From Planctomycetia bacterium (GTDB lineage: Bacteria; Planctomycetota; Planctomycetia; Gemmatales; Gemmataceae), in NCBI GenBank assembly GCA_005808665.1, contig SYLG01000091.1:1-53826 (forward strand): DNA of 53,826 nt. Direction: 5' to 3'. The position numbers were made by a program, and so were the translations under genes. The notes beneath the pieces were generated by a model. That model did not search any database. It saw only the letters and a program-made list of their open reading frames with translations, and was not told the origin of the DNA. Position 1 is the first letter of the stretch. The number at the start of each line of letters is the position of its first letter. This document shows positions 34,683 through 50,867 of the stretch, piece after piece.

Positions 34683-37600
34683 GTGGCCAAGAAGATTCCA
34701 GGGATTGCCAAAATCCAAAAACCAACACCCAAACCTTTTTTTCAACCCAACCAGGATAGGATCATTGTCCGGGGAGCCCAGGAACATAACCTTCAATCCA
34801 TCAACCTCGAAATTCCAAAAAACCAATTGGTGGTCTTTTCAGGTGTTAGCGGTTCCGGCAAAAGTTCACTCGCTTTTGACACGATTTTTGCGGAAGGGCA
34901 ACGCCGGTATATCGAATCCCTCTCCAGTTATGCCCGACAATTTTTGGGCCAAATGCCAAAACCCGTTGTCGAATCCATTCAAGGCTTGGCCCCCACGATT
35001 AGCATCCAGCAAAAATCGGCAAGCAAAAACCCTCGATCCACTGTTGGAACCATAACTGAAATTCACGATTTTCTCCGTGTTCTTTATGCGCGAATTGGGC
35101 AGGGACATTGTCCCACATGCAAACGCCCAATCGAAGCCCAAACAAGGGAACAAATTGTAGAAAGGCTAAAAGCCTGGGGGCAGTCGGATCAGCTATTGAT
35201 TCTGGCACCTTTGGCAAAGTCCCAAAAAGGCGAATTCAAAGATCTATTTTTGGAATTATTAAAAAATGGCTTCCTGAGAGCCCGGGTGGATGGAAAAATT
35301 GTCAGGTTGGACGAAGAACTTGGCCTCGACAAACGCATTCGCCACAACATTGAACTGGTCCTGGACCGTATTCAGGGAAATGGCGACAGGTCCCGGCTTG
35401 CCGAATCCGTGGAAAACGCCCTGCATCACGGCAAAGGGGAACTCATTGTAATAAAGGAGAGCAAAGGTGAAAAAGAATCAGTCACCCAAAGTGAACTGAC
35501 CCTTTCCAGCAAATATGCTTGCATCCCCTGTCAAATTAGCTTTGCCGAACCTACCCCCCAAATGTTCAGCTTCAACAGCCCCAAAGGAATGTGTCCGTCC
35601 TGTGAAGGCTTGGGCCAGACCTTTACTATCTCGCCAGAACTTCTCATTCCTGACCAATCTTTAAGTTTTTTCAAAGGTGCCGTGGTTCTTGCGGGACCGA
35701 TGGCTTCCATGGGTCGGTGGCGCAAGCATATTTTTGAAGGAATTGCCGAGGCTGTTGGGATGGACCTAAAGGCTCCCTGGCAAGCAATGCCCGATAACCA
35801 CAAATTCGCCCTGCTTTTTGGCACGGGAGACCGTCATATCACCTACACCTGGAAACAACGCGGAGGGACTGTTTGGAAACATGGCGGCATTTGGGAAGGG
35901 ATCATTCCCCAACTTATGACCAATTTCAAAAAGGTAGCCGCTGGGCCAAGGAAGGTGCAGCTACAAAAATATATGAGCATACTCCCCTGCCCCGCCTGTG
36001 CGGGCCTTAGGTTAAATCCCCAAGCCCGTGCGGTCAAGGTTGGTGGTCAAACAATTTGCGAGTTGGAATCCCTTTCAATCGGTATGGTCCAAGCTTGGAT
36101 TCAACCCGGTCATGGTTCGTTGGAGTCGCTTTTGGGCCCTGTGGAAAGGCTCATTGCCGCGGAATTATTAAAGGAAATCCGCACCCGGATTGGATTCCTG
36201 ATGGATGTGGGGCTCCATTACCTTTCCCTCAACCGCTCGGCCCCCACACTTTCCGGGGGTGAAACCCAACGGATCCGGCTTGCAAGCCAAATCGGTTGTG
36301 GCTTGGTAGGGGTCCTTTATATCCTTGACGAACCTTCGATTGGGTTACATCCTCGAGACAATGAACGACTCCTTGGAAGCCTTAAAAAACTGAGAGATCA
36401 AGGCAATTCGGTCATCGTGGTGGAACATGACGAGGATACGATGCTTGCCGCGGATCACCTTATCGATTTTGGTCCAGGACCAGGCCTTCGCGGTGGTCAA
36501 GTTGTAGCCCAAGGCCCCTTGGCCAAAATCCTGAACTCCAAAGAAAGCCTCACAGGCCAATTCTTAAGCGGGGCCCGGTCCATTCCCCTTCCCAAATTGC
36601 GACGCATTGGAAACGGGAAAACATTGAGGGTGGTTGGTGCCCGGCAAAACAACCTCAAAAACCTATCCATCCAATTCCCACTGGGGAAATTCCTTTGCGT
36701 TACTGGCGCAAGTGGATCCGGCAAAAGTTCCCTGATAAACGAGATCCTCCTGGAAGGTCTCAAGCGAATTCACCACTCCATTCCTGATGAAGAGGAAGGA
36801 GAACCGGTTTTAGGCCGAGTGGGCCTTCATGACCGAATTGAGGGGGCCGAGCATATCGACAAGGTTATTGCAATCGACCAATCCTCCATTGGGCGGACTC
36901 CCCGTTCCAACCCAGGAACCTACATCAAGGTGTTTGACGAGATTCGCAAACTCTTTTCGGTCGCACCCGAAGCTAAAATTCGCGGTTGGAAACCTGGTCG
37001 ATTCAGTTTTAATCGACCAGGTGGGCGCTGTGAAACCTGTGAAGGCAATGGCAGCAATCGGCTGGAAATGGACTTTTTGGCAGATGTTTGGGTCACCTGC
37101 CCAGTCTGTGAAGGCAAACGATTCAACCATGAAACCTTGCTTGTCCGGTGGCGAGGAAAAAACATCCACGAGGTTCTCGAATTGAACATTGAGGATGCCC
37201 TTATGCACTTTGCGAACATCCCCAAAATTCGGGATATGTTGACAACAATGGTTTCCGTGGGAATGGACTATGTCAAAATTGGCCAGCCCGCACCAACCCT
37301 TTCTGGCGGGGAAGCACAACGCATAAAACTGGCAAAAGAGCTTTGCAAAAAGTCCACTGGAAAGACCCTCTATATTCTGGATGAACCCACCACTGGTCTC
37401 CATTTCGAAGATGTTCGCAAACTCCTCGAGGTCCTCCATGCCTTGGTAGATTTGGGAAACACGGTCCTTGTGATCGAACACAATATGGATGTTATAAAAA
37501 CCGCCGATTGGGTAATTGATATGGGACCGGATGGCGGATCAGGGGGCGGAGAATTGGTCATTGAGGGGACACCCGAAACGGTTGCGAAATCCAATACATC

Positions 37601-49559: not shown

Positions 49560-49560
49560 A

Positions 49561-49577
49561 CCAAGTTACGCAGTTGG
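49561..49577 (+). repeat. 17-bp dispersed repeat, copy 2
   Basis: This is an exact copy of ccaagttacgcagttgg found inverted at 118-134. It begins one base after the TAA of the PHP-domain gene and marks the left border of the repeat island. Confidence 0.6.
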
Positions 49578-49643
49578 GACCATGAAATACCGGGGTTTTC
49601 CCAGGGAAAAAGTTAAGTCCTCCTTAAAAAGTCGGGACAACAA

Positions 49644-49702
49644 ATCCCCACTTTGGAGGGGTGCGCGTCAACCGAAGCCAATTTCACCAACCCTCTTCGC
49701 TT
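49644..49702 (+). repeat. 61-bp family repeat, copy A1
   Basis: This diverged copy of the unit has the core tgcgcgtcaaccgaagcc followed by aatttcacca and cttcgctt. It abuts the left end of the short element at 49703. Confidence 0.7.
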
Positions 49703-49834
49703 ATTCCCCTCTAGGGAGGGGTGCCCGTCAGGGCGGGGTGGTTCGTAAGGTGTGCCACCCCGTCTTCCCCATTTTGTGTTTCAAAAGGCACCACCCCGTC
49801 AGGCTTCGCCTGCCACCCCTCCCCAGAGGGGAAT
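49703..49834. mobile_element. internally deleted DUF559-linked element, copy B1 (MITE-like)
   Basis: 132 bp. The left end (attcccctctagggaggggtg, then cccgtcaggg and cggggtggt) and the right end (accaccccgtcaggcttcg through gaggggaat) are the same as the ends of the nuclease-bearing element at 49979-50443. Between them remain short edges of the same interior: a segment like the nuclease gene's 3' end (cttccccat) joined to one like its upstream region (ttttgtgttt). About 330 bp of gene are missing. Confidence 0.75.
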
Positions 49835-49859
49835 TCAATACAAAGGATTAACCCTGATT

Positions 49860-49980
49860 CCACTCCCTTGAAGGAGTGCGCGTCAACCGAAGCCAATTTC
49901 ACCAGCCTTCTTCGCTTATTCCCCTCCCTTGAAGGAGTGCGCGTCAACCGAAGCCAATTTCACCAGCCGTTTTCGCTGAT
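49860..49980 (+). repeat. tandem pair of 61-bp repeats, A2 and A3
   Basis: Two head-to-tail copies are offset by exactly 61 bp (gaaggagtgcgcgtcaaccg at 49870 and 49931) and differ mainly in the last 15 bp. A3 runs into the left end of the nuclease element. The minus-strand reading of A3 supplies the last codons of the nuclease frame. Confidence 0.85.
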
Positions 49981-50353
49981 TCCCCTCCCTTGGAGGTGTG
50001 CCCGTCAGGGCGGGGTGGTTCTTCAAAAGGGCCACCAGGCCTTCCCCATCCTGCAAAATATCTTTAACGGCTATACGGATCACCACCAGCCCTAACCCAT
50101 TCAGGTAGGTATCCCGATTTGCGTCGTCCTTTACCCGCCCGTCGTGCGAGGCACCATCGGCTTCGATCACAACTCCTTTTTCTGCGCAGAAAAAATCCAC
50201 AATGAAATTGCCAATGATTTTCTGCCGATCAAAATCCAAGCCGTTGAGTTTTTTCTGTTTGAGCTGATTCCACAACAAAGCCTCGTGCAGCATCCCGGCC
50301 TTGCGAAGCTCCCAGGCGTGTTCTTTCAATCCAGGGTTGAAGGGCAAGGACAT
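49916..50353 (-). CDS. DUF559 (Vsr/PD-(D/E)XK-like) endonuclease-domain protein
   Basis: About 145 residues. The ATG at 50353 has AAAGG close upstream. Residues 5-110 form a DUF559 domain: helical start (LKEHAWELRKAGMLHEALLW), QKIIGNFIVDFFCAEKGVVI with Asp in the VDF strand, then EADGASHDGR with the E-x-D of the PD-(D/E)XK fold, and a final strand GLVVIRIAVKDIL. It is probably a small DNA nuclease. The last 33 residues (KNHPALTGTPPREGN onward) are read from the element's left terminal repeat and the neighbouring 61-bp repeat. The gene lies inside its own inverted repeats and is flanked by deleted copies, which suggests it moves or maintains the family. Confidence 0.85.
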   Translation of the reverse strand: MSLPFNPGLKEHAWELRKAGMLHEALLWNQLKQKKLNGLDFDRQKIIGNFIVDFFCAEKGVVIEADGASHDGRVKDDANRDTYLNGLGLVVIRIAVKDILQDGEGLVALLKNHPALTGTPPREGNQRKRLVKLASVDAHSFKGGE

Positions 50354-50443
50354 GTAGCCTTTTGTGTTTCTCCTGGGACCGCTGGACTTGCCCACATCAC
50401 CACCCCGTCAGGCTTCGCCTGCCACCCCTCCCCAGAGGGGAAT
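49979..50443. mobile_element. complete DUF559-bearing element with terminal inverted repeats
   Basis: 465 bp. The left terminal repeat (49979-50019) and right terminal repeat (50399-50443, inverted) align as ATTCCCCTC, a GGAGG-containing arm, an internal hairpin (cccgtcaggg left; caggcgaagcctg right) and CGGGGTGGT. Each end is itself palindromic, as in REP elements. The only gene inside is the DUF559 nuclease. No IS200/IS605-type transposase is present. Mobility is inferred from the internally deleted copies at 49703 and 50597. Confidence 0.65.
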
Positions 50444-50450
50444 TAATAAC

Positions 50451-50486
50451 TCAGGCTTCGCCTGCCACCCCTCCCCAGAGGGGAAT
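50451..50486. repeat. solo right end of the DUF559-linked element
   Basis: 36 bp identical to the last part of the complete element's right terminal repeat (caggcttcgcctgccacccc through gaggggaat), located 8 bp after it in the same orientation. It could come from tandem duplication or an abortive insertion. Confidence 0.75.
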
Positions 50487-50596
50487 TCAATACCCCAGCC
50501 TACGCCATTCGGACCTTGTAAACCCGGTTTTCCTGAATGAAATCAAATCGTCCCTCAAAAATCGGGACTACAAATCCCCTCAAGAAATTAGCCATT

Positions 50597-50731
50597 ATTC
50601 CCCTCCTTTGGAGGGGTGCCCGTCAGGGCGGGGTGGTTCGTAAGGTGTGCCACCCCGTCTTCCCCATTTTGTGTTTCTCAAAAGGCACCACCCCGTCAGG
50701 CTTCGCCTGCCAAACCTCCCCAGAGGGGAAT
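50597..50731. mobile_element. internally deleted DUF559-linked element, copy B2 (MITE-like)
   Basis: 135 bp, nearly identical to copy B1 (two extra bases after ttttgtgttt and a few substitutions such as ccaaacc for ccacccc) and with the same ends as the complete element. It lies on the opposite side of the nuclease gene, in the same orientation. Confidence 0.75.
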
Positions 50732-50756
50732 TCAATACAAAGGATTAACCCTGATT

Positions 50757-50844
50757 CCACTCCCTTGAAGGAGTGCGCGTCAACCGAAGCCAATTTCACC
50801 AGCCTTCTTCGCTTATTCCCCTCCCTTGAAGGAGTGCGCGTCAA
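50757..50844 (+). repeat. 61-bp repeat A4 followed by truncated/hybrid copy A5
   Basis: A4 is identical to A2 over its core. A5 starts 61 bp later and switches after gcgcgtcaa to aaggcgggatggtt, which resembles the element's left terminal repeat (cagggcggggtggtt). A5 ends 23 bp from the holB stop. Together, 49715-49947 and 50610-50844 are a direct duplication of about 233 bp. Confidence 0.8.
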
Positions 50845-50867
50845 GGCGGGATGGTTCTTCTTGATCC

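Follow-up and report, generated by a model that had tools for sequence, protein, structure and literature searches.

A DUF559 nuclease gene between inverted fold-back ends, a probable minimal mobile element with gene-less derivatives

A DUF559 gene and the two fold-back ends around it probably form a minimal mobile element, the only enzyme of which would be a nuclease of the Vsr/EDxHD fold. Comparison of the copies makes it very probable that the unit is mobile and that its small copies are derivatives of it. DUF559 itself is quite probably the enzyme responsible for moving the units. The evidence comes from the copies in one planctomycete genome, from the ends of DUF559 genes in other genomes and phyla, and from occupied and empty sites.

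The element and its gene-less copies

We analyzed a stretch of 53,826 nucleotides (the window) from Planctomycetia bacterium GCA_005808665.1 (contig SYLG01000091.1, 1..53,826, + strand; genome of 4.48 Mb, labeled G000). The preliminary description had proposed a 145-residue DUF559 gene enclosed by its own inverted palindromic ends. Gene and ends are real, with ends of 41 nt on the left (L) and 46 nt on the right (R), and the DUF559 domain (PF04480, E=1e-27) lies wholly inside the L-R interval. The enclosure does not hold for the entire reading frame, as the preliminary description missed: the ORF does not stop at the L end but continues across it, so that the final ~20 codons and the stop codon are outside the element. 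This C-terminal tail is encoded by the two 61-nt direct repeats listed in Table 1. Between the L and R ends, no gene other than DUF559 was found, and hence no DDE, HUH, Ser or Tyr transposase.

Table 1 Features of the DUF559 element and the surrounding array in the window
Feature	Position	Strand	
Gene-bearing DUF559 element, 465 nt	49979..50443	.	
L end, 41 nt: outer hairpin CCCCTCC..GGAGG(T/G)G, inner hairpin GCCCGTCAGGGC, third arm GGGGTGG	49979..50019	+	
R end, 46 nt, inverted: outer hairpin CCCCTC..GAGGGG, inner hairpin CAGGCTTCGCCTG, third arm GGGGTGG	50398..50443	-	
DUF559 (EDxHD/Vsr-like, PD-(D/E)XK) nuclease gene, 145 aa, ATG 50353 to TAA 49916	49916..50353	-	
Miniature copy 1, gene-less, 132 nt, L and R ends as in the gene-bearing element	49703..49834	+	
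Miniature copy 2, gene-less, 135 nt; spacer retains CTTCCCCAT and TTTTGTGTTTCTC of the gene-bearing element	50597..50731	+	
Solo R end	50451..50486	-	
Solo L end, decayed	50815..50860	+	
Two 61-nt direct repeats (CTCCCTTGAAGGAGTGCGCGTCAACCG..), decayed end-like units running into the L end	49861..49987	+	
Copy of a second repeat family, X (TTACGCAGTTGGGACC..GTCGGGACAACAAATCCCC), a frequent neighbor of the element	49560..49655	+	
Entire array (~1.3 kb), between convergent PHP and HolB genes	49560..50867	.	

Both ends follow a common plan, in which the outer hairpin CCCCTC..GAGGGG is outermost and is followed by TG, the inner hairpin and CGGGGTGGT. Each end also contains CGGGGTGG beside its outer and inner hairpins. 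The inner hairpins are unlike each other (CCCGTCAGGG on the left, CAGGCTTCGCCTG on the right), and the L end of the gene-bearing copy is one base away from the consensus (GGAGGTGTG instead of GGAGGGGTG). The array is made up of decayed and complete copies, namely the gene-bearing unit, two miniatures and solo ends. The 176 nt at 49772-49947 recur in direct orientation at 50669-50844, with 97% identity and an offset of 897 nt. Part of the array has thus been duplicated around the gene.

The preliminary description had looked to further copies in the genome, and these are present. The window genome contains 56 matches to the element sequence and one DUF559 gene. About 25-30 of its copies, two of them in the window, are gene-less, ~125-158 nt long, and retain the asymmetric L and R ends, which remain distinct from each other in all gene-less copies of this genome. 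The 132-nt gene-less form occurs in at least 16 places with 83-95% identity, beside partial copies and solo ends. The window end pattern has 34 matches in its own genome, and its mirror-image control has none. The gene-less copies are thus dispersed, paired inverted palindromes in intergenic DNA, the arrangement that characterizes REPINs.

Sequence from either terminus of the gene-bearing element is recognizable in the spacers of gene-less copies (L068, L053, L062). In L068 (158 nt), ~40 nt of the 3' coding end of the gene are retained together with the start-codon region. The left-side spacer matches exceed all 300 shuffles in 11 of 14 gene-less copies, and the right-side matches reach a shuffle p < 0.05 in 10 of the 14. 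As the spacers match both gene termini, the small copies look like internal deletions of a gene-bearing copy and would be true miniatures, as they are known from insertion sequences and their MITEs.

When gene-less copies were compared in pairs, neither flank was common in 82 of 136 pairs. Both flanks were common in 13 of the 136, owing to the adjoining repeat family X. Repeat X (TAACCCAAGTTACGCAGTTGGGACC.. to ..GTCGGGACTACAAATCCC) is found alone after unrelated DNA and also on both sides of many element copies (L018, L064, L023 and others); a sequence related to it is present in the same-genus genome G001 (L188). In genomes G303 and G328 (L310-L328), 74-nt paired ends lie inside a larger unit of ~150 nt (TTAAATTAGGCTGCCTTTGGCAGC..GAAATTCCTGAACATTAAATTA). 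This unit is present in every copy, so a larger composite is copied there. Judging from these longer common flanks, other processes copy such units too.

Ends of DUF559 genes in other genomes and phyla

For each DUF559 locus, the 400 nt on the left were compared by alignment with the reverse-complemented 400 nt on the right, and a score of at least 16 was taken as a matching end pair. In Planctomycetota, 79 of 101 standalone DUF559 genes (78%) reached this score, with a median of 22, vs 0.12% of the control positions in Planctomycetota loci (n=1710; median 9.5). Outside the phylum, matching inverted ends were found at 57% of the DUF559 loci (n=75) and at 0.29% of the controls. These 75 loci span Nitrospirae, Deltaproteobacteria, Omnitrophota, Chloroflexi, Rickettsiales, Gammaproteobacteria, Patescibacteria and others. 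In the gonococcus, the species from which the solved protein 3hrl comes, the DUF559 gene has inverted ends with a score of 15. Clear ends are absent from about a fifth of the standalone genes in the phylum and from 28-43% elsewhere. Two loci, L149 and L145, carry their DUF559 genes inside very long inverted repeats with local scores of 314 and 213, which are perhaps large inverted duplications.

The similarity of the ends follows the similarity of the proteins. Among 82 genes with ends, DUF559 protein identity and end similarity correlate with a Mantel r of 0.65; the maximum of 2000 permutations was 0.09. The best protein partner in another genome is also the best end partner in 231 of 282 comparisons, where 109 would be expected. 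In genomes with several DUF559 genes, the paralogues bear different ends. By these comparisons, the end type is seen to follow the protein clade and not the genome. The preliminary description had mentioned similar G/C-rich repeats near DUF559 genes of other bacteria and had proposed co-variation of DUF559 clades with their own ends as a test, next to further copies and empty sites; each of the three checks speaks for it.

Of 392 genomes of the phylum, 7 have matches to the end pattern of the window element, and none matches the mirror control. DUF559 lies between window-type ends in four of the seven (G000, G057, G071 and G423; L031, L157, L159 and L166), and three of these loci (L157, L159, L166), with a like DUF559, belong to three other families of the phylum. 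Genome G071 has 91 window-type ends. The protein at L159 is 54% identical to the window DUF559, and a gene-less copy adjoins it. For repeat type 1, which is another end type, DUF559 is present in 24 of 29 genomes with the repeat vs 39 of 363 without it (Fisher p 8e-17, kinship ignored). In each co-occurrence test, three to five repeat-bearing genomes had no DUF559. Cognate repeats without a DUF559 match were seen in G126 (10 copies), G390 (27) and G193 (5). This can be due to gene loss or to a missed gene, but another mobilizer fits too.

Could the ends be REPs that are moved in trans by RAYT (Y1 HUH) or by another transposase elsewhere, with DUF559 as a passenger? The window genome does contain one weak Y1_Tnp match, its sole Y1/RAYT-like gene (C137:11910-12113, L330), and a RAYT-type sequence was read near one f50 locus. 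However, no element ends are found within the 3.2 kb around the Y1 gene, which agrees with the contrast to RAYT drawn in the preliminary description. The co-variation of the ends with DUF559 clades across genomes and phyla is not expected of a passenger, and the ends are without the GTAG/CGTC tags of described REPs (PMC3733652). We therefore regard a passenger role as very improbable. The likeness to REPIN-RAYT systems lies in the anatomy: palindromic ends flank a single gene, intergenic DNA holds many paired-end copies without the gene, each enzyme clade has ends of its own, and no target duplication has been seen. The difference is that the enzyme here is DUF559, with a Vsr/EDxHD fold, and not a Y1 HUH transposase, that its ends consist of a hairpin and a third arm without a GTAG tag, and that the miniatures keep gene remnants.

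The third arm follows a rule. In 47 distinct ends of DUF559 loci, which also comprise a C-arm and a complementary purine arm, it is a mirror image of the purine arm in which T takes the place of A. The third-arm base facing A is T in 52 cases, A in 18 and another base in 3, so T or A in 70 of 73. T faces A in 71% of the observed pairings vs 47% of shuffled pairings; the G positions had to match by design in this test, so only the A positions are independent. Read from the sequence, the pattern is the reverse-Hoogsteen purine-triplex code (G*GC, T*AT or A*AT). The inner hairpins of window-type ends comprise 18 different stems with a mean of 5.7 bp vs 1.9 bp when shuffled. As far as these stems indicate, the ends are conserved in structure and not in sequence.

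Knowledge of BoxC/PIT repeats goes back to the 1990s, and genome instability has been linked to them. The exact BoxC motif is found at DUF559 genes, e.g., at L228, L095 and L110, and on this motif evidence the DUF559 ends are assigned to the known BoxC/PIT/TM_ECO "triplex motif" class, a membership that the preliminary description did not recognize. The class has been reported from >260 genomes, with inverted pairs of type A and type B in E. coli (Holder 2015, PMC4666352). It has been tied to unstable loci and is polymorphic between strains, TM_ECO folds as a triplex in vitro, and transposases or integrases were "never found" with it (PMC4666352). The DUF559 ends share with it the arm/arm/third-arm order GGGAGAGGG-TTA-GGGTGAGGG, the paired inverted A and B types and the polymorphism between strains. 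They differ in that BoxC/PIT/TM_ECO was described without a mobility gene, whereas in the present case such arms bound an element with a DUF559 gene. In E. coli, the DUF559 gene ycjD (present in ~3,333 of 5,426 genomes) ends inside a degenerate BoxC, and a second BoxC follows 190 bp on; both are on the 3' side, and no BoxC was found upstream of ycjD.

Occupied and empty sites

The preliminary description had suggested comparing occupied with empty sites, and such sites were found in relatives of the window genome as well as on a Synechocystis plasmid and in E. coli. Where the window has its 1.3-kb array, PHP and HolB are ~10-15 bp apart in both same-genus genomes. Element DNA had no match in 40 relatives, including these two, and was found in its own genome only. 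The array is derived in the window lineage, and its difference from the sister gap does not amount to a single clean insertion. A locus in genus g100 was considered as an empty site and set aside, as it adjoins another palindromic repeat and is rearranged.

On plasmid unnamed3 of Synechocystis sp. B12 (35299-35797), a 499-bp unit consisting of end, DUF559 and end interrupts a DUF1156 (putative methylase) gene. The DUF1156 halves on either side of the unit remain in one frame. Intact DUF1156 homologues from Planktothrix, Nostoc, Geminocystis and Calothrix have a variable linker at this position, which the unit replaces. In the Synechocystis unit, the third arms are outermost and the hairpins innermost, the reverse of the window type.

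Between hrpB and mrcB of E. coli, a BoxC pair is wholly present or wholly absent between strains. No target duplication was seen at this site, and the junction differs by ~15 nt between the two states. Two further hrpB-mrcB alleles are collapses of the BoxC pair. Neither here nor at the DUF1156 site was an exact target-duplication or excision footprint obtained. The alx-sstT site likewise has or lacks a BoxC pair depending on the strain, and in some strains (L366, strain PI24) another repeat-like insert of ~300 nt takes its place. The ycjD locus, at sapF-fabI, was rejected as a clean empty site, since it is occupied either by ycjD or, in strains without this gene, by the eefRABCD operon (PMC12817139); BoxC remnants are present on the ycjD allele.

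These sites bear on the idea that there is no mobile element at all and that DUF559 is a house-keeping, Vsr-like nuclease with neighboring terminator or triplex repeats as its substrate or regulator. A Caulobacter DUF559 protein, named VsrA, has been proposed for mismatch repair (PMC12907096), and some DUF559 genes have no ends. Such a role fits poorly with the miniature deletion derivatives, the insertion of a unit into the DUF1156 gene, the absence of the array from the sister species, and the rarity of such ends at control positions (0.12% in the phylum). Hence, we give a purely house-keeping role very little credence.

The nuclease and its proposed role in movement

The window DUF559 matches PF04480 above the cut-off and has the E, D, E-x-D, H and D residues of DUF559/EDxHD-like proteins. 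E24, D53, E64 and D77 are invariant among 48 DUF559 proteins, and D66 and H70 are found in at least 90%; all six are present in the window protein, and its catalytic residues are thus intact. The AlphaFold model has a pLDDT of 84. Its closest folds by VIA Z are 3hrl (13.9), the catalytic domain of I-Bth0305I (11.5), Vsr (9.8) and TnsA (6.5), and the model predicts a PD-(D/E)XK/Vsr-type fold. Compared with the mismatch-repair nickase Vsr, the fold is alike, but the active-site residues differ (ExD..H in DUF559), and no methyltransferase link was seen in the window. PADLOC gave no significant defense match. In the searchable literature, a scope outside which preprints and most subscription papers fall, no report tying DUF559 to palindromic or triplex repeats was found.

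After 3hrl, the closest fold is thus an EDxHD homing endonuclease, with which DUF559 also shares conserved E, D, H and D residues, and a DUF559 gene has been placed in the EDxHD homing family (PMC9403480). DUF559 may accordingly be thought of as a homing endonuclease that has invaded an older family of palindromic repeats, cutting gene-less members and being copied in by repair, the repeats having spread otherwise; the repeat-bearing genomes without DUF559 would agree with this. However, both gene termini have left remnants in the gene-less copies, which marks these as descendants of gene-bearing ones, and they far outnumber the gene copies, which is the opposite of efficient homing. In Synechocystis, DUF559 and both ends lie as a unit in an unrelated gene and not in a pre-existing repeat. 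I-Bth0305I is encoded by an intron and has one homing site, whereas DUF559 has cognate ends, miniatures and many sites. Homing would predict one cognate target in which only the gene is present; instead, many dispersed gene-less copies with the same ends were found. We consider homing unlikely, and both homing and a RAYT-moved repeat with a DUF559 passenger fit less well than a mobile element of DUF559 and its ends.

The mobile element proposed here resembles insertion sequences with MITEs in having an autonomous copy plus internally deleted copies with the same ends. It differs in that it is without a DDE, HUH, serine or tyrosine transposase; no target duplication was seen at the E. coli hrpB-mrcB site. 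As this anatomy comes without any known transposase class, the element would be of a new kind. Like the preliminary description, which had labeled movement an inference, we infer that DUF559 itself does the moving.

Movement could proceed as follows. In single-stranded DNA, the ends would fold according to the triplex code, each forming a hairpin to which a G-rich third arm is added. A clade-specific DUF559 would recognize its own folded ends and cut near them; nicking of the folded ends is an even call as the first step. Copying or gap repair would then carry the segment between the two ends to a new intergenic place without target duplication. In such a nick-and-copy route, a Vsr/EDxHD-type nuclease would hydrolyze DNA, so host polymerase and ligase would be needed. 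To our knowledge, hydrolytic PD-(D/E)XK nucleases alone do not join strands. Copies that lack the gene interior but keep both ends could spread in trans, which would explain why most copies are miniature. From cutting onwards, we infer these steps.

For the DUF559 family, which is very common and annotated as of "unknown function," the flanking ends provide a testable partner. DUF559 likely also makes the BoxC/triplex repeats of E. coli, which have long been orphans; previously, no gene had been tied to the spread of BoxC/PIT. The chances are about balanced that DUF559 represents a new class of transposition enzyme, with triplex-end recognition followed by nick and copy, and is the source of BoxC/PIT/triplex repeats across bacteria including E. 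coli. If this is true, a Vsr-type nuclease would drive a widespread family of mobile elements without a known transposase, and triplex-forming DNA would gain a biological function, as a site that is recognized by a specific protein.
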